Below, one piece after another: positions 1,599 through 11,988 of a DNA stretch of 23,013 nt. The notes beneath the pieces were generated by a model. It worked only from the letters and a program-made list of their open reading frames with translations. It did no database searches and had not been told where the DNA came from. The DNA is from a virus. The translations under genes and the position numbers were made by a program. The DNA lies in IMG/VR virus record IMGVR_UViG_3300044682_000014, positions 1 through 23,013 of that record, one strand, 5' to 3'. Each line of letters opens with the position of its first letter. Position 1 is the stretch's first letter.

Positions 1599-2705
1599 AT
1601 GATTCCCCCAATCATCCTCCTAGGCGAAGCCTGGGGGGTTAACGAACAAGCAACCCGCGCCCCATTCTCCGGCCCGGCAGGAATCGAACTCTTTAACCTT
1701 CTTTCCGAGGCCGGCGTAATAACCCCGACCTCAACCGACTCCGATTACATCCGTAACTACTACAACCATGGCGACCCTCACCAACTCGACATGGTATGGC
1801 GACTTCACCCCGAAGTTGCCAGGCTCAACGTCTTCAATCTTCATCCACCTGGTAACAACATGGAGGCCCTTTGTGGACCACGAGAACATAGGCTCCCCGG
1901 TTATCCCGCATTGCTTAAAGGAAAATTCATCCACGCCGAATTCGCCCCACACCTCGAAGCCTTGGCCGAAGGGATCAATTCTCTCAATCCTAACCTTATT
2001 ATCGCTCTCGGCAACACTCCTCTTTGGGCTCTGTGCGGCCTCACAACAATTTCGAAATTTCGTGGTAGCACTCGTGTCTCTACACATACCGTAGCGGATT
2101 ACAAGGTTCTACCAACCTATCACCCGAGCTACATCCTCCGAGGGGGTTACTCTGATCGGGCGATCGTGATCATCGACTTAATGAAGGCGAAGAAGGAGAG
2201 CGAATATGCCGATATCAGACGCCCCGAACGAGAGATTTGGATCGAGCCCGGAAATGGAGATATACGCAGATTCATTGAGAATCACATTAGAAACTGCCAA
2301 CTACTATCTGTCGATATTGAGACGTCAGGCACACGTATTACATGCATTGGATTCGCACCATCCAGAAACCTTGGGATTGTTATACCTTTCGATGACAAAA
2401 GAGCAGCAGGAGGAAACTACCACGCTACTATTGTTAACGAGCGTGAGTGTTGGAGGCTTATACGAGAAGTTCTCGAAGATGGAAGCATTAAGAAGCTTTT
2501 CCAAAACGGACTCTACGACATTGCCTTCCTCTGGCGATCAATGAAGATCAAAGTCTACGGTGCGGTTGAGGACACGATGCTTCTCCACCACGCCCTGCAA
2601 CCGGAATCCCTCAAAGGACTCGAGTTCCTTGGGAGCCTCTACACCGACGAAGGATCGTGGAAGTCGGATCATCGAAAGTCAAAGACGATTAAGAGGGATA
2701 GTTGA
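1599..2705 (+). CDS. Uracil-DNA-glycosylase-like domain fused to 3'-5' exonuclease (N-terminal half of a split family A polymerase)
   Basis: A 368-aa protein; ATG follows AAGGA (1585-1589) by 9 nt. Residues 1-~200 match the UDG superfamily: GEAWGVNE at 9-16 (GExPGxxE in family 4), PFSGPAG at 22-28, LGNTP around 137-141, and YHPSYILR with His175. Residues ~230-340 match a DnaQ-type exonuclease: Exo I VDIET with Asp239 and Glu241, Exo II QNGLYD with Asn303 and Asp307, then EDTMLLHHAL with Asp325. The chain stops at TIKRDS before the Exo III YxxxD motif, which is found instead at the start of the polymerase ORF. Family-4 UDGs were once annotated as phage SPO1 DNA polymerase-related, so UDG and polymerase domains have a known link. 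Expected role: proofreading, perhaps uracil sensing, at the phage replication fork. Confidence 0.85.
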   Translation: MIPPIILLGEAWGVNEQATRAPFSGPAGIELFNLLSEAGVITPTSTDSDYIRNYYNHGDPHQLDMVWRLHPEVARLNVFNLHPPGNNMEALCGPREHRLPGYPALLKGKFIHAEFAPHLEALAEGINSLNPNLIIALGNTPLWALCGLTTISKFRGSTRVSTHTVADYKVLPTYHPSYILRGGYSDRAIVIIDLMKAKKESEYADIRRPEREIWIEPGNGDIRRFIENHIRNCQLLSVDIETSGTRITCIGFAPSRNLGIVIPFDDKRAAGGNYHATIVNERECWRLIREVLEDGSIKKLFQNGLYDIAFLWRSMKIKVYGAVEDTMLLHHALQPESLKGLEFLGSLYTDEGSWKSDHRKSKTIKRDS

Positions 2706-2706
2706 A

Positions 2707-2997
2707 ATGAAAATCGATATTCAAATAAACGAATTCAGTCCCAGCGATCCTGTACGTGTTGGGAATGTCTACCCTATTAAGGGAGGAAGAGGAATACGCG
2801 AAAAACATATGCAGATACTTATTGCTATGTCAGAAGCACGTGAGTATCATGGCATACACTGTCTGATGCTTGTTGTTACTAAGGAGGGGAAACCTATAGG
2901 AGTAAATGATTATGCGCTACACTATGTCGAAGAGCTTCAGCCGATTGCTTTTGTGGATGGATTAGAGGACATGACGCTAGTAATGCGATCACTATGA
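2707..2997 (+). CDS. 96-aa unknown protein lying between the exonuclease and polymerase genes
   Basis: ATG at 2707 lies 9 nt after GAGGG (2693-2697) and just after the upstream TGA; its own TGA overlaps the polymerase ATG (ATGA at 2994-2997). The product begins MKIDIQINEFSPSDPVRVG, has a basic glycine-rich turn (YPIKGGRGIREKHMQ) and then strand-like segments (ILIAMSE, LMLVVTKEGKPIGV). It vaguely recalls small accessory phage proteins with a 'VGDVYPxKGGRG' start. It has no HNH, GIY-YIG or LAGLIDADG motif, so it is not an obvious homing endonuclease. Hand-counted GC is about 42% (121 of 291), against about 57-60% in the first 120 bp downstream. It interrupts what is usually one continuous exonuclease-polymerase gene. 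Confidence 0.75.
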   Translation: MKIDIQINEFSPSDPVRVGNVYPIKGGRGIREKHMQILIAMSEAREYHGIHCLMLVVTKEGKPIGVNDYALHYVEELQPIAFVDGLEDMTLVMRSL

Positions 2998-4499
2998 AAA
3001 TCATCCGCACCCATGAAACCAGCCCCACTTCCCTTTCCGAATGGGAACGGGACCAAGTCTACAACGGCCTCGACTGTTGCGTCACCCGTGAAGTCTTCGA
3101 CGTAATCCATCCCGGCCTCGATAACCATACCGCCGCGACTTACGCATTCTCCAAAGACCTACAAGGGCCGGCCTTAGAGATGCGACTTCGCGGGGTTCTC
3201 GTCGATACCGCCCGCCGCGCTGAGGTCATCGACGAGATGCACGACCGCCTTGATAAACTTGAGCGGAACCTTGATCTGATCGTACTTGATGGCGTCGGTG
3301 CGGTTAAGTTCAATTGGCGAAGTAACGAAGACTTGAAGGAGATTTTCTATGGCAAACTTGGTATCCCGGAAATCAAAAGCAAGGGCCGCGTTAGTGTCGA
3401 TGTCAATGCTCTTGGTAAGCTTGAGCAGTACCTTATCGCAAGGCCGATCGTTTACCATATCACCGCGATGCGAGAATTGGGAAAGCGTATTGGTGTGCTT
3501 CGAACCCCATTGGACACAGACGGGAGGATGCGAACTAGCTATAACATCGCTGGCACCAATACCGGACGCTTTTCGTCCTCTGGTTCCGAATTTGGAACCG
3601 GAGGAAATCTACAAAACGTGGAAGAATCTCTGCGATCCATCTTCATCCCCGACCCAGGAATGAAGTTTGCGAAGTTTGATGCGAAGTCAGGCGAGTCATT
3701 CGTTGTTGGTGCAATAGAATGGAATCTGTTCAATGACCCAACCTACCTCGAAGCCTGTGAGTCTGGGGACCCTCATACAGCTGTTGCTCGTATCTGCTGG
3801 CCTGGATTGGGATGGACAGGAAACCTCCGTCTTGATAAAGAAATCGCAGAAAGACCATATTACCGACATTACTCTTACCGCTTCATGTGCAAAAAGCTCG
3901 GTCACGGTTCAAATTACGGCGGACAGCCTTTTACCCTTGCTCAACAATCCCACCTCCCCATCGGAGTTGTCCAACAATTCCAACCAAAATACTTCGACGC
4001 CTTCCCAGCCCATCGACGTTGGCAGGATTGGGTCGCTGATCAACTCCTTAGATATGGATATCTCGTCAATCTCACAGGCCGTAAACGCTGGTTCATGGGG
4101 CGGCGTAATGACGCAGCTACGCTGCGTGAAGCAATCGCTTATGATCCTCAGGGGTCTCTTGCCGACATCGTAAATCGTGCTATGCTCCGCATTTGGCATG
4201 CACGCGATGCAGCCCTCATGATGCATGACCACGATGCCCTAACAATCCAATACCCGGAGGAACGCGAAGATGAAATCATTCCCAAGATCATGGCGATTCT
4301 TACAGAGACTATCGAACTGGATCGCGGACGAACTTTACGAATATCATACGACTGTAAAGTCGGTTGGAACAAAGGAGACTACGACAAAGATCATCCTGAA
4401 CGCAACCCCCAAGGGCTAAAAGATTATGTCCCCAACGATAAACGGAAGCGGGAAGCGCGTCCTCACCTCTTGGATCGACCGCTACATCGAGTTAACTAG
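2994..4499 (+). CDS. polA-like: Family A DNA polymerase (polymerase domain plus Exo III motif)
   Basis: A 501-aa protein. Motif A lies at FAKFDAKSGES with Asp229. Motif B is RFMCKKLGHGSNYG, with Arg296, Lys300 and Tyr308 in the same spacing as R754, K758 and Y766 of E. coli Pol I. Motif C is MMHDHDAL with Asp412 (D882 equivalent). TNTGRFSSSG and NLQNV match the conserved region before motif A. The first 30 residues hold YNGLD (Tyr23, Asp27), the Exo III motif that belongs to the exonuclease domain encoded upstream. The F762 position is His304 and the E883 position is His413. ATG overlaps the stop of the 96-aa gene (ATGA) without a clear ribosome binding site, so translation is probably coupled. 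The 3' end overlaps the next gene by 74 bp. Confidence 0.93.
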   Translation: MKIIRTHETSPTSLSEWERDQVYNGLDCCVTREVFDVIHPGLDNHTAATYAFSKDLQGPALEMRLRGVLVDTARRAEVIDEMHDRLDKLERNLDLIVLDGVGAVKFNWRSNEDLKEIFYGKLGIPEIKSKGRVSVDVNALGKLEQYLIARPIVYHITAMRELGKRIGVLRTPLDTDGRMRTSYNIAGTNTGRFSSSGSEFGTGGNLQNVEESLRSIFIPDPGMKFAKFDAKSGESFVVGAIEWNLFNDPTYLEACESGDPHTAVARICWPGLGWTGNLRLDKEIAERPYYRHYSYRFMCKKLGHGSNYGGQPFTLAQQSHLPIGVVQQFQPKYFDAFPAHRRWQDWVADQLLRYGYLVNLTGRKRWFMGRRNDAATLREAIAYDPQGSLADIVNRAMLRIWHARDAALMMHDHDALTIQYPEEREDEIIPKIMAILTETIELDRGRTLRISYDCKVGWNKGDYDKDHPERNPQGLKDYVPNDKRKREARPHLLDRPLHRVN

Positions 4500-5640
4500 C
4501 AACCTCGAATCTCCCGTGATCTTTCGGCGTTGGGCTGCAATCTCTACCATCGGGGCGACTCTCGAACAAAAAGTCTGGATCGTAACCTCATCCCCGATGT
4601 ATCCCAACCTATTCGTTTTCCTCGTCGCCCCGCCAGGAGGGGGTAAGTCGCGAACGATTAACTTCTCAACCGCTCTTATCTTATCCCTGCCTAATCCCTA
4701 CATTGCCCCGACCTCGATTAACGCCGCATCGATTATCGACCACCTAAAAGAATGCAAACGTTCCATCGCTTTGCTGCCAGGGCCGGGCTTCGAATACAAC
4801 GCAATGGCGATTATGGTCGGAGAGTTCGGAACGTTCATGTCCCAATACGATGACGATCTCATGGCGATCCTGACCGACATGTTCAACGTTACGTCGTATA
4901 GCCAACGTCGTCGAGGCGGGGCACTTCACATCACCATAGACCGCCCATCACTTTCCCTTTTAATCGGCACCACCCCAGCGAACCTAATGAAGTTCATGCC
5001 CGAAGCCGCCTGGGGTCAGGGCTTCGCCTCTCGTATAATCTTTGTTTATTCTGAGGACAAAACAATCGTGGATGATTTCGCGGGGGAGACCGAAGCCGCC
5101 GCTCCCGCAGACCTAATCCATGATCTTAAGATCATCAACATGTTGACTGGGAAGTTCACAGTCACACCAGCTTATCGAGACCTCGTGAACAACTGGCGGC
5201 TAGTTGGGGAAACCCTTCCCTCTGCACCGAAGCCTTCCCACCCGCGCTTCCATCACTATAACGCCCGACGGAAAGAACAACTCTACCGCCTATCGATGAT
5301 CTCCGCGGTGAACCGAAGCAACACACTACTTTTAACCCTCGAAGATTTCAACACCGCTCTCGGCTGGTTAGCCGAAGCTGAGTTCTTCATGCCCGCGATC
5401 TTCCAAGACGCTTCGGATCGATCCGACTCCGCTGCGATGGACGATGTTACTCACTTCGTTTTGTCCCGACGGTCGGTGAATGAACAAACCTTAATCAACT
5501 ACGTTCGCCAGAAAGTCCCCGCTTATGCTGTTTTCCGCGTGATTGATTTACTAGAACGATCCGGGGCGATTGCGGTCGTTAGTATCGATAAGCGTACCGG
5601 CATTCGGACTTTCAGTGCGGGGGCATCAGACCTTCCGTAA
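4426..5640 (+). CDS. P-loop ATPase, DUF3987-like, probable replicative helicase/primase component
   Basis: A 404-aa protein. Residues ~15-45 (SWIDRYIELTSNLESP, then FRRWAAISTIGATLE) match the N-terminal segment common in phage DUF3987-like replication ATPases. Walker A is APPGGGKS with Lys74. A Walker B-like strand, AIMVGEFG, has Glu133. IGTTPANLMKFMPEAA and GQGFASRIIFVY fit the sensor and arginine-finger region of a ring ATPase. The C-terminal ~75 residues (FVLSRRSVNEQTLINYV, AVFRVIDLLERSGAIAV) look like a winged helix. The start at 4426 is needed to keep the conserved N-terminal segment, so its overlap with the polymerase gene is probably real. Its position after the polymerase supports a role in DNA unwinding or primer synthesis. 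The family name is from memory. Confidence 0.75.
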   Translation: MSPTINGSGKRVLTSWIDRYIELTSNLESPVIFRRWAAISTIGATLEQKVWIVTSSPMYPNLFVFLVAPPGGGKSRTINFSTALILSLPNPYIAPTSINAASIIDHLKECKRSIALLPGPGFEYNAMAIMVGEFGTFMSQYDDDLMAILTDMFNVTSYSQRRRGGALHITIDRPSLSLLIGTTPANLMKFMPEAAWGQGFASRIIFVYSEDKTIVDDFAGETEAAAPADLIHDLKIINMLTGKFTVTPAYRDLVNNWRLVGETLPSAPKPSHPRFHHYNARRKEQLYRLSMISAVNRSNTLLLTLEDFNTALGWLAEAEFFMPAIFQDASDRSDSAAMDDVTHFVLSRRSVNEQTLINYVRQKVPAYAVFRVIDLLERSGAIAVVSIDKRTGIRTFSAGASDLP

Positions 5641-6603: not shown

Positions 6604-9600
6604 TTATTTTGGCACCTCACTATGTACCCAATCGCTGAATGATTTGGTATGTCCTTTAGTCTGGCCGTATCGTAATCCAACTGTTTCTTGCCACGGCCCA
6701 GCTGGGTGTTCCTCCCCATGTTCTTCATCCCAAAGAAACTTTCCTGCATTACCTAAGGTTTGGTTGCCTACTCCAGTCAACAACCCCATCAACCCAGTAA
6801 AATGCTTGATAAAATTTCCAGCGGTATGGGGCGTAAACGCTCTATGTGAAGCGATATCGCGAATGGGATCAGAGATTTCTTTCATTGTAGCCGACAATAA
6901 CCCACCTTCTGGGTCACGCCCATTCAAGAGGGCATAAAGTAAATCCTTTACCGGGATGAAGCCACTACCAATCGCACCAGCAATGAGATTCATTCCTGTT
7001 TTAGTATAAGATTCTTTCTTATTCCCTGTACTAGAAAATAACATGTCAATCGTGGACGGTAAAATAGATGCGGTGAAGAATAATCCAGCGGCTATCTTAG
7101 CATTCCTCATTGACGAATCGGTAAGACCGCCTTTATAATTAGAGTACGCATCCTTAATGCGCCAAGCGGTTTCATATTGTTTCTGAAAATTCTCACTGAA
7201 GAAATTATAAAACAGAGTCCACCAACTAGCGAGACCGCTCGATCGTGCGATACCGGATTTATTCACAAATACCGATGACCCATGCGTTTGCCTAACGAAT
7301 CGATCCGCAAGAGACACAGCATCACCCTCCGACGCACCTTCGGCAACGGCCTTTTTATATGTCGCAAGCCACGCGGGGACAGATGACATCATATCAAAGA
7401 AGCCAATTGGATAACTACCAAGCCATTGCGATACGCTACGAATATTATTCATTATTGACAAAGTGTTACTCCGATAATTTCCTACCGATATTTGTTGACG
7501 AGTTGCTATGTCCTGGAAGTTCTTGAACCTGCGAGCGAGTTCATCACTCCTTCTCATTGCCATAGCCCAGTTTCGTTCCCCTGAACCATCCTTCATTTGT
7601 AGCGTAGCAAGCTCCCGGCTAAACGCTATCGGCATACTTAAAAAGGATTTAGCCGCTGCCGTCAATCCATGCTTGGCAATTGTTCCGGGGTTAGCGCCGA
7701 TTAATGTCGAAGCCATATTACTTCGAAAATAGTCCGAGACTCGCGATGCCCAGGCTTCATAAGAACTGTCATAGTTTTGTCTATTTGCTATATACGAAGC
7801 CCAATCCTTCAACTCATTATATGGATGTTCGCCGTAATGATGCTGCACCGCACTGGCAAATTCCTTATCGAATACGATCTTACTGATCTGATTGATCGCC
7901 GGGCGCATTGCAATATCATGGATCATCTGTGATATACGCGTAGGTATAATCTCTAGACCGAGAGGGATTTGGTAGACCGCATCGGTTCGCGCTTTGGCGT
8001 ACCCCGGTGTCTGTGGGGCGTCTGATCTGAGATAGCCCTTTTGTAACAACGCCTCTTTATCTCGTCGAATTCCGTATTGATTATCAAGAGAGTCTTCGTG
8101 TAAAGGATGATACCAACCATCCACTTCCCCGTGTGGTGTCTGCACTTTCCCCACATCGATTCTATCAATTCCGCGGTTATTATTTTCGTGACGAGACATG
8201 ACATCAGCATGGTCCAGGAGCTCATCAAAAATCTTCCCGAACTTTTGTGCCCGAGTAACTGCGGCTTTAGCTCCACCTGGCTCTTTCTCTAATTGATCCC
8301 ATAGCCACTTCATACCGACAGCTTCGTTGATTCGATACCCTTCAAATAACTTGGCTCGATTTCCGACGTTGCCGACATTCTGTAGGATTGACATTAAATG
8401 GCCACGATTGAGATCGTAAAGATTTCCTGTTTTATCTTTCCAAAGGTTATTTTCTATCTTCTTTCCAAGGTGCCCTATATCGCTCATAGCGTCACTAAAT
8501 TTACCGTTGTATTCTTTCGCTAGCCTATCGATATAGTTCGCTCCTTCTATAGCTGGCCGAAAGATTGTTTGGTTAAAGTTACCAAACCAATCACCTTTAT
8601 CGATCCGATTCGTGAACGATTCCGTATTGATATGGCGCCAAAAGGTTGCAGTGACGAATTGTCCCACAGTCTGCCGTTCGGCCGGATTTGGGTTGTACTT
8701 CTTTGGTGGACCCAAGTCAGCAAGCTGTTTCTTCATATCATTAATAAGCTCTTGCCGATCTACTCGCTCACCGCCTTTCCAGATTGTCATCTCATTACGC
8801 GCGTTCGTATCAAGATCGCGCATGAAGTCAGTTAGGTTAATAAACTCAGTCCCGGTAAGTTGATTAATGCTACGATTGAACCCTGAGTCTTGCAGAAAAT
8901 CAGGCGGAAACAGACTACGTCCCTGCCGGCCCTTACTAAACACGAAATCATTAATCGTAGCATATCCGTTTTTCAGCATTGAACGTTCAGCGTTCGTTAG
9001 GCTTCGCTTCGTGCGTTCGCCAATATTATTTAATAACGTGTGCATTACGTCTACATATTCCGGATCGCGCCCCTTTAGCTTTGGTGCGTCCGCGAGGCGG
9101 TTATAGAGTTTTTGTATCTTCTTAAATTGCTCTCCGGCCTTCTCAACTTTCATCGCCTCCCTGGCCATAGCGATGTTGAAATAATGTTGCTGACGTAAGC
9201 GAAATGCTTCACCTGGATCATTCTTAAGTAACGCTTCCTCGACTCCGCGCATGGCCCGCCCAGCGGTAGCCAACAACTTATCAGAAGAGATTCGGGGATA
9301 TAGCATATCCCCGACCATTTTCTTCGCAGCCGCTTGCACATCTTGTCGAGTAAAAGGGAGCTTTGGGTCACCAGGGCGAATTTGTGATAGTGCCTCTTCA
9401 AGTTGTGCGTGTAGGATGTCTAACTGCGTAATTGAAAGAATCTGATCCTTTGCGGCTTCGATAATATTTTGATCCAACTTACCGTACCGCGCCTGCATTC
9501 GAGATTCAGTTTCGGCATCAATAATGCCTCTCATATGCTCCTTCGGCGCCATTGTTCCGCGCTCAGCCGCAACACTTTGGAGGTCACGGATCATCGCGTC

Positions 9601-11988
9601 GCCAGAGTCGTAACCGAATATTTTACCAACGGCATCCGGGTCCTCTCCCCCACGCGTAATGTATTCCTTCGGCAAACCTTCCCGCTGAGAATCTGTCAGC
9701 GAATCGGCATCGAGCTTAAGTTTGCCTTCCCGCAAAGCTTTATCAGCCATATAACGAGGTTGTTGCGCTACTTCAGTCGCTACTTCTTCTCGAACCTCGG
9801 CTTTATTCTTATTCCACTCCGGGGTTTGGCGCTTACGCTCATCGGCAACGGCACGGCGTAAGGTCGCTTCATCGTACTCAGATTTTTGCTTTTCTATTAA
9901 AGTCATGTAACGTCTATGTAGGACTTCCTTAAGATCGATCGCCTTTCCGCTAGCGAGCGGTGAAGTTAATGGCTGTTCTACTCGAGGTTCCCTTGGAGTA
10001 GGCGGCTCAATTGGGGTCTTAATCGGCTCCCCAATTCGTCTGCCTGCCTCCTCAATCAAATCCCCGTGCCAATTCTTTTTCATAAAGGCATCGACTTCTT
10101 TAGTCAAGTCGATGTACCCGGTAACACGTTCATAAATCATCCGCCATGCATTAGCGATGCCTTTGAAAAACTTCTCAACAATGCCTTGAGGTTCAATCTT
10201 TTGTGTAATAAATCGCGACACCTGTTCCGCAAACCATTCGGAAAAGAGGTTATTATACGGCGTAACAGTACGCTCTTTTCCTGCCATGTCAATAGTAGAA
10301 ACTGGCCGATCCTGCTCCCATGTACGTTTTTCACGTCCACGCAGGGAGTCTTTCCAAGCTTGTTGTATTGCTTGCTTCACATCGTCTGTTTCATGGTCAA
10401 GTTTTTGATATTCCATCTGATGGCCAAATTCATGAATGGCGACGTTTACCGCTGCATTTTTACCTAGATCAGAACGTATAACAATATCGCCTGTGTGCCA
10501 ACTTGCTCCAAGAGTCCTTGCTCCCGGAATATTTTCACCTGCCCAAAGAATTGGCTTTGTTTGTAGTCCTAATTTAGTTGCCAGCTCTTGTACAGTTGCA
10601 TCTACATGATCGAACCAATCTGGCAGTGGCCCAGTTCCTACTTCACGATTGCGTGCATTACTAAAGAGCTTCTCAAAACCCACTAGAGGAGTTGGGGTAC
10701 GGGCTTCTTCTGGGCCCGACAGTCCCGAAGCCTCGCGTAAGGAATTGACTGCGTCGGTGTGGGGATCGCCGGTTGGTTCGTTAACAACAGAGGGCTTCGG
10801 AACCTCTTCCCCCTTCGTGATCCCTTCCGGCCGAACCCGAATCCTATCCTCAATTGCTTTGAATACCTCCGGGTCCATATGCGCAAGTAAGTCCGCTGTC
10901 GGTACCTGCACATCGGACCCGGTTGCCTTCGCGAGTTCTAGTTGCGAAGCCATGTCCGAAACGAAGCCGAGAAGGTTATCCCCAGGTTCAGGGATTTTAT
11001 CACCGTAAAGCTTAGTCGCCGCCTCAGCCGAGACTCCAACCGTGTCCTCACCGAAATGTTGTTCCGCAAACTTTTGGAAATACTCCGGGGACCGTGCCAG
11101 AGTTGCGGATTTCTGTGAAGTCTTCATCGCCTCTTGAAGGGCTTTGAGGTCCGCGTCGGATTCGGCTTTATTCAGTTCATCGACTTTCGGGTCGACCCCA
11201 ACCGGAACCGACTTACCAGATTTGATGAACGGCTTTGCTTTCTGGGCGGCACGGGCGATATCATTTAGCTCCGGGGGAATATGCGGCTTTCCCATCTCCC
11301 CAGCCATCGCGACTTGGGCCATTGAGATAAGATCGCGGGTTAGATCGCCAGCGGTACCTGGGTGCCCCGTTATCTGTTGATACGCAGCTTGCCCACCAAA
11401 CTTCTCATAAGCAGTACCGATTCCACCCGCTACAGCGTCAATCACGCCGCTGAAGGCTTGATTGGTAACGGTTAATCCAAATGCGGCTGGGCCAAGAAGA
11501 GTATTAACAAAGCCACGCCATACCGGAGAATCAACTAAGTTATATAGTTGATTCGCTTGTTCTTTTTGTCCTTGCCAATCGAAGCCCTCGGAGAAGCCTT
11601 TTGAAATCGATTGTTGAACATCATAAGCCCCTGCTACTCCCCGTGCTAGACTCTGAAAAATTCCCGGCTTCGCCACCTTCCCCATCGCCTCACTCGCGGC
11701 GTCGAGGTTGGCATAGTCATCAGAAGAGACCTTCGCGGCCATCGGGTCGGAGAGGAGGTACCTACTGATCTGCGGATTATTCGCGGTGATATCCGCCGCG
11801 GCTTTGCTTTTAATTCTATCCTCAAACCCTTCTACGTCGTTGTGTACCAACGGCGCTGGGACCCCGGTAAGTTTACCGAGTTGTACCGCCCGAGCCGCCT
11901 CATCGGGGTTACCGCCAGTCGAAGCCGCTGCGAGTCCTTGGGGATTCCCAAAGACATCTTGGACTGATAACGGTTGAAGGTCACTCAC
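6604..11988 (-). CDS. Giant ejection/internal virion protein (gp16-like) with HExxH metalloprotease domain
   Basis: A 1794-aa protein starting at GTG (11986-11988), with a GTGA overlap to the upstream stop. The N-terminus (DEAARAVQLGKLTGVPAPLV, then LLSDPMAAKVSSDDY) is like that of other podovirus ejection proteins from memory. Residues ~435-600 hold a zincin-like domain: AVNVAIHEFGHQMEY with His519, Glu520 and His523, and 60 residues later SEWFAEQ with Glu584 and Glu588 as possible third ligand. HExxH plus a downstream Glu is the gluzincin pattern. Residues ~700-1250 are mostly helical and charged. The C-terminal part (LASWWTLFYNFFSEN, QYETAWRIKDAY, AGLFFTASILPSTIDML) resembles large polyvalent phage proteins (LPD38-like) and may insert in the membrane. 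It is last in the gp14-gp15-gp16-like order, which fits the ejectosome. No transglycosylase motif was seen. Confidence 0.85.
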   Translation of the reverse strand: MSDLQPLSVQDVFGNPQGLAAASTGGNPDEAARAVQLGKLTGVPAPLVHNDVEGFEDRIKSKAAADITANNPQISRYLLSDPMAAKVSSDDYANLDAASEAMGKVAKPGIFQSLARGVAGAYDVQQSISKGFSEGFDWQGQKEQANQLYNLVDSPVWRGFVNTLLGPAAFGLTVTNQAFSGVIDAVAGGIGTAYEKFGGQAAYQQITGHPGTAGDLTRDLISMAQVAMAGEMGKPHIPPELNDIARAAQKAKPFIKSGKSVPVGVDPKVDELNKAESDADLKALQEAMKTSQKSATLARSPEYFQKFAEQHFGEDTVGVSAEAATKLYGDKIPEPGDNLLGFVSDMASQLELAKATGSDVQVPTADLLAHMDPEVFKAIEDRIRVRPEGITKGEEVPKPSVVNEPTGDPHTDAVNSLREASGLSGPEEARTPTPLVGFEKLFSNARNREVGTGPLPDWFDHVDATVQELATKLGLQTKPILWAGENIPGARTLGASWHTGDIVIRSDLGKNAAVNVAIHEFGHQMEYQKLDHETDDVKQAIQQAWKDSLRGREKRTWEQDRPVSTIDMAGKERTVTPYNNLFSEWFAEQVSRFITQKIEPQGIVEKFFKGIANAWRMIYERVTGYIDLTKEVDAFMKKNWHGDLIEEAGRRIGEPIKTPIEPPTPREPRVEQPLTSPLASGKAIDLKEVLHRRYMTLIEKQKSEYDEATLRRAVADERKRQTPEWNKNKAEVREEVATEVAQQPRYMADKALREGKLKLDADSLTDSQREGLPKEYITRGGEDPDAVGKIFGYDSGDAMIRDLQSVAAERGTMAPKEHMRGIIDAETESRMQARYGKLDQNIIEAAKDQILSITQLDILHAQLEEALSQIRPGDPKLPFTRQDVQAAAKKMVGDMLYPRISSDKLLATAGRAMRGVEEALLKNDPGEAFRLRQQHYFNIAMAREAMKVEKAGEQFKKIQKLYNRLADAPKLKGRDPEYVDVMHTLLNNIGERTKRSLTNAERSMLKNGYATINDFVFSKGRQGRSLFPPDFLQDSGFNRSINQLTGTEFINLTDFMRDLDTNARNEMTIWKGGERVDRQELINDMKKQLADLGPPKKYNPNPAERQTVGQFVTATFWRHINTESFTNRIDKGDWFGNFNQTIFRPAIEGANYIDRLAKEYNGKFSDAMSDIGHLGKKIENNLWKDKTGNLYDLNRGHLMSILQNVGNVGNRAKLFEGYRINEAVGMKWLWDQLEKEPGGAKAAVTRAQKFGKIFDELLDHADVMSRHENNNRGIDRIDVGKVQTPHGEVDGWYHPLHEDSLDNQYGIRRDKEALLQKGYLRSDAPQTPGYAKARTDAVYQIPLGLEIIPTRISQMIHDIAMRPAINQISKIVFDKEFASAVQHHYGEHPYNELKDWASYIANRQNYDSSYEAWASRVSDYFRSNMASTLIGANPGTIAKHGLTAAAKSFLSMPIAFSRELATLQMKDGSGERNWAMAMRRSDELARRFKNFQDIATRQQISVGNYRSNTLSIMNNIRSVSQWLGSYPIGFFDMMSSVPAWLATYKKAVAEGASEGDAVSLADRFVRQTHGSSVFVNKSGIARSSGLASWWTLFYNFFSENFQKQYETAWRIKDAYSNYKGGLTDSSMRNAKIAAGLFFTASILPSTIDMLFSSTGNKKESYTKTGMNLIAGAIGSGFIPVKDLLYALLNGRDPEGGLLSATMKEISDPIRDIASHRAFTPHTAGNFIKHFTGLMGLLTGVGNQTLGNAGKFLWDEEHGEEHPAGPWQETVGLRYGQTKGHTKSFSDWVHSEVPK

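Follow-up and report, generated by a model that had tools for sequence, protein, structure and literature searches.

The window, i.e., the whole stretch of DNA analysed (23,013 nucleotides), is an IMG/VR virus contig of 23 kb in which three genes, here called UE, INS and POL, follow one another on the plus strand (Table 1). INS begins at position 2707, one base past the UE stop codon, and its own stop codon overlaps the start of POL in the tetranucleotide ATGA (2994-2997). UE matched the Pfam families UDG (E = 4e-13) and DNA_pol_A_exo1 (E = 3e-9), and POL matched DNA_pol_A (E = 5e-33; 115 bits vs. a curated cut-off of 34). Both this domain score and the Klenow-type fold of a read-through relative (see below) identify POL as a family A DNA polymerase, with D229 (motif A), K300 (motif B), and H413 and D414 (motif C) invariant. 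INS matched no Pfam or PHROG family and, when modelled alone (pLDDT 61), gave no significant fold match. Its relatives, at 43–63%, occur in loci L081 and L082 and in Microcystis phage Mwe-JY08. INS relatives (L081, L082, L089) lie in other phage contexts, with no recognised polymerase adjoining, as for an accessory gene.

Table 1 Features of the split polymerase locus (positions in the window).
Feature	Position	Strand	Description
UE	1599..2705	+	ATG to TGA, 368 aa; uracil-DNA glycosylase and first part of a DEDDy 3'-5' exonuclease
Exo I D239/E241	2313-2321	+	within UE
Exo II N303/D307	2505-2519	+	within UE
K-R-D codons AAG AGG GAT of the UE tail	2691..2699	+	probable Shine-Dalgarno site for the following gene; arginine codon bias
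INS	2707..2997	+	96-aa cargo gene
POL	2994..4499	+	ATG to stop, 501 aa; last part of the exonuclease and family A polymerase domain
Exo III Y23/D27	3060-3074	+	within POL
DUF3987 / primase-type gene	4426..5640	+	downstream of POL; its junction with POL, seldom interrupted, served as comparison junction

A previous reading of the letters alone (the sequence-only reading) had placed the Exo I and Exo II motifs of one proofreading exonuclease on UE and Exo III on POL, with a third gene between them. The Pfam matches, the PHROG 17 profile and an alignment with the Klenow fragment (1dpi) bore this out, down to the residue numbers (D239, E241, N303 and D307; Y23 and D27), and the latter two also confirmed that the break falls inside the exonuclease domain, between Exo II and Exo III. 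On PHROG 17, UE covers profile positions 549-793 and POL positions 808-1252, so that only ~14 positions are absent at the break. Klenow itself matches the family profile with E = 7e-64, and in the alignment the DxET of UE corresponds to D355/E357, its NxxYD to D424 and the YNxxD of POL to Y497/D501 (E. coli numbering). The DEDDy set (four carboxylates D, E, D and D plus the Exo III tyrosine) is hence complete, yet spread over two chains: UE ends 61 residues past the Exo II aspartate and POL starts 22 residues ahead of the Exo III tyrosine. In unsplit homologues the same Y..xD serves as Exo III. We looked for an Exo III motif within UE, for homologues in which YNGLD is not the exonuclease aspartate and for a continuous ORF, the three observations that the sequence-only reading had set against its own claim, and found none of them.

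The same division recurs well beyond this contig. A scan of IMG/VR with POL retrieved 80 relatives (POL 63–80% identical) and, wherever enough upstream sequence was available among them, UE was an ORF of its own, with the end of UE and the start of POL at unchanged residues. Together with a wider scan, the Caulobacter phage Kuura and three MAG contigs, this made up a set of 156 loci, window included, in all of which the exonuclease is divided between UE and POL instead of lying on a single polypeptide, as is normal in family A polymerases. The UE proteins that share this break mostly end in ...TIKRD[x] and the POL proteins begin with M[KR]IIxT. Of the 130 loci whose upstream sequence extends for 2.5 kb or more, 129 have UE; the exception (L177) is a distant outgroup. 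Chance or an assembly error, the latter flagged for checking by the sequence-only reading, was rejected as the source of the split, since many separate assemblies contributed to the 156 loci and the break is identical in them. Relatives with and without an insert, a comparison proposed earlier, were both found and share the same break. The distance between UE and POL is below 60 bases in 43 of the 156 loci, mostly with stop and start codons overlapping by 4 bases or 1 base, and larger in the other 113. The gaps of the empty loci (−4 in 18 cases, −1 in 16, 0 or 3 in 6, and others) include all three frame relations.

Canonical PolA is a single chain, and single-chain relatives with a UDG, an exonuclease and a PolA domain in the same order as the split locus do exist (Microcystis phage Mel-JY34, MW202489 and 79 IMG/VR loci); Mel-JY34 even has the same DUF3987 neighbour as the window. 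The stretch that links Exo II to Exo III is shorter in them, by ~20 residues that the split proteins bear at their ends. A separate scan of the close relatives of Mel-JY34 and MW202489 showed, by a simple test, a single ORF in 79 of 80 loci; L211 is interrupted only further on, within the polymerase domain. We also built a tree of polymerases (86 non-redundant split, 50 unsplit) by a quick search with midpoint rooting, from loci that were the closest matches to the queries, and on it a single change of state suffices (SH-aLRT 99). Because canonical PolA is one chain and the tree requires one change, the split points to a single old fission in the ancestor of a large phage clade that includes Kuura, rather than to a one-off accident, although rare unsplit members may sit inside the split clade, as the sampling took the loci most similar to the queries.

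The break is also a place where genes come and go. Among the 145 loci in which both junctions could be measured, at least 100 bases were held between UE and POL in 106, vs. 9 between POL and the primase-type gene. The UE–POL junction is thus an insertion hotspot, or cargo slot. As to the comparison junction, the 74-base overlap of POL with the DUF3987 gene (4426-4499) has counterparts throughout the split clade, where such overlaps are common. The 176 insert ORFs, taken from a greedy ORF caller and some of them spurious, fell into 99 groups, 79 of them singletons; ~87% of their residues lie on the coding strand, and the joints on both flanks of the inserts are mostly −4, −1 or a few bases. Slot occupancy requires ~15 changes on a fast tree, with at least 11 on supported branches. 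Four relatives with POL sequences 94–97% identical illustrate this turnover, L019 being empty and L042, L051 and L056 holding three unrelated genes. The insert itself, to which the sequence-only reading had ascribed the split, can be discarded as its cause, since 43 loci are split without one, the break is fixed clade-wide and the insert varies even among these near-identical relatives.

Endonuclease genes are part of the cargo: the 91 inserts scanned included 12 of the HNH_3 family, 3 of Endonuclease_7 and 2 of LAGLIDADG_3. The window's INS belongs to none of these and showed no homing-endonuclease signature; in relatives, inserts of homing-endonuclease type are found at this very point. Other slot families are DUF7768, DUF7220 and methyltransferases; the commonest cargo is a DUF7768 or deoxyribosyltransferase-like group present in 24 loci (e.g., L113:4442-4954). 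It is plausible that an endonuclease invaded the ancestral gene and that this cargo was later replaced or lost, though the case for a homing-endonuclease origin of the split is circumstantial. About as likely, at a little under even odds, is that fission alone made the breakpoint and that endonucleases and other genes arrived later, as most inserts are not endonucleases and about a quarter of the loci are empty. A fission-first origin has to accommodate the HNH, LAGLIDADG and endonuclease VII genes in the slot as well as L249 (3962-6627), a member of the unsplit sister clade in which an HNH_3 gene (4587-4928) interrupts the protein after UDG and just ahead of Exo I. The latter is an independent split, and it indicates that genes of the HNH kind are able to break this polymerase family.

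The physical setting of the break was explored by structure prediction on L013, a locus in which a single TAG stop separates the UE and POL ORFs, both in the same frame. We modelled its exonuclease and polymerase as a single read-through chain, with the stop read as Gln and an alignment of 123 rows that combined trimmed polymerase rows with read-through rows and excluded those from the phage collection. Earlier mixed alignments had been dropped because polymerase-only rows stretched the junction and the UE tails were misplaced. The model had a pLDDT of 93.6 and a pTM of 0.91; its sole stretch below 50 pLDDT, residues 159-166, is at the break, and the Exo III helix is at ~96–98. The top PDB matches retrieved with Foldseek were Pol I/Klenow structures. 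These results place the break in a flexible loop at the surface of a fold that is normal elsewhere.

The residues of the divided site are strongly conserved. The full DEND|YD set is present in 151 of the 156 loci, and the other five comprise four truncated contigs and one D-to-E replacement. Estimated dN/dS was lowest in POL, at ~0.07 outside the Exo III helix and ~0.09 within it, and reached ~0.12 in the exonuclease part of UE; these are rough figures, with dS near saturation in many pairs, and both halves appear to be under purifying selection. Because the motif residues are invariant and selection acts on both halves, the data favour a working two-chain proofreading site over its loss. The sequence-only reading had left assembly of the two proteins and loss of proofreading side by side: its premise, that two chains are needed if the site is functional, stands, and the invariance of the catalytic residues favours assembly of the two outcomes. 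Invariant residues could in principle also serve an exonuclease role outside the polymerase. UE might be an independent repair exonuclease or have another partner, with Exo III retained in POL for structural reasons; a UDG domain makes a role in uracil repair possible. We consider this improbable, given that UE lacks an Exo III motif, that Y23 and D27, both invariant in POL, line up with the catalytic Exo III of Klenow and the unsplit relatives, and that in the unsplit sister clade a single chain contains every part. Still less probable is a loss of exonuclease activity through the split, with POL working in its absence. There are phage PolA lineages with an inactivated or missing exonuclease (divPolA1 and divPolA2; PMC11348598), but one would expect an inactive site to have degenerated over such divergence, whereas here the catalytic residues are invariant on both sides of the break throughout the clade and under purifying selection. 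That the two chains are joined by recoding (read-through or frameshift), intron splicing or a split intein is hardly credible: a few empty loci do have both ORFs in frame across one stop, but the empty loci occur in all three frame relations, the gap is larger in 113 loci, a search of 16 sources returned no Rfam intron, and the chain ends are too short for intein halves.

We therefore propose, with a probability of roughly 0.8 for the explanation as a whole, that this locus encodes a two-subunit family A replicase, that its gene was split once and ancestrally, and that the breakpoint turned into a cargo slot. UE would contribute the UDG domain, Exo I and Exo II, and POL would contribute Exo III and the polymerase. 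Made separately from one operon, the two proteins would then associate, the starting helix of POL completing the exonuclease fold and adding the fourth carboxylate and the tyrosine; we infer both this association and the resulting activity. The break in the ancestral gene would have fallen between Exo II and Exo III, in the flexible surface loop. If a second chain does complete the site, proofreading should be reconstitutable by mixing two proteins, and its effect on fidelity would be titratable. A further idea, which we regard as doubtful, is that proofreading is a separable subunit here, with UE docking on POL to complete the site, and that the strength of proofreading depends on a UE:POL ratio set by translation through the slot gene.

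The end of UE offers a possible explanation for how the slot stays usable. AGG or AGA encodes 77 of the 107 arginines of the conserved K-R-D, vs. 22% of those in the remaining UE. This codon choice yields AAGAGGGAY a few bases upstream of any following start codon, and the K-R-D codons of the UE tail probably also serve as a Shine-Dalgarno site for whichever gene comes next. In the window the site (2691-2699) precedes INS, and POL is joined to INS through the ATGA overlap, an arrangement that suggests translational coupling of POL to INS. A short ORF landing in the slot between these ribosome-binding codons and the stop/start overlap would thereby be translated and hand the ribosomes on to POL. 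The locus would then represent an old gene fission that has become a standing insertion slot in a replication operon, kept usable by a dual-coded sequence.

Split phage polymerases as such are already known. In the phages 25 and 44RR (gene 43A-43B, a split family B polymerase) and in Aeh1 (nrdA split by mobE), a replication enzyme is likewise encoded by two ORFs that mobile or intercistronic DNA separates (PMC2988022). The phage 25 43A/43B proteins co-purify with polymerase activity, the split NrdA of Aeh1 is active, and a seg gene may have entered a gene that was split beforehand (PMC2988022). The present case differs from these in that the enzyme belongs to family A, the break passes through the proofreading site and is fixed throughout a large clade, and many unrelated genes, or none at all, occupy the slot. 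The OM43 phages MEP401 and MEP402 have a two-ORF family A polymerase with a small unknown ORF between, an arrangement common in their group (PMC10580990); their break interrupts the polymerase domain and leaves the exonuclease whole, whereas here it lies between Exo II and Exo III. We came across no analysis of catalytic residues, empty slots or cargo for these phages. In Caulobacter phage Kuura, genes 029 and 026 have the same break as the window, with two small genes between; their proteins are only 36–37% identical to those of the window and gene 029 is annotated as hypothetical. In the open-access literature we came across no polymerase whose split runs through the proofreading site, which is weak evidence of absence. 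What differs here is this break through the proofreading site, clade-wide and with interchangeable cargo.

Several other loci depart from the usual architecture in different ways. In L086 (Vibrio phage VS-ABTNL-3; 3456-6590) the polymerase domain is split by an unknown 184-aa ORF, as in MEP401. L088 (MW202554; 1727-4364) has the exonuclease, Exo III included, apart from the polymerase ORF, with the break at the domain linker. The polymerase domain of L254 (3887-7282) contains ~290 extra residues in one open frame, possibly an intein. The POL residue aligned with E. coli position 762, H304 (3903-3905), is histidine in all 155 aligned relatives and not Phe, Tyr or Leu. Polymerase surveys have retained only F, L or Y at this position (PMC9069017), a filter that would omit the His-bearing split group. 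Elsewhere in the window, a 1794-aa protein encoded on the minus strand (6604-11988) matches PHROG 9880 (unknown function) and adjoins internal virion and tail proteins in a podovirus-like structural block.
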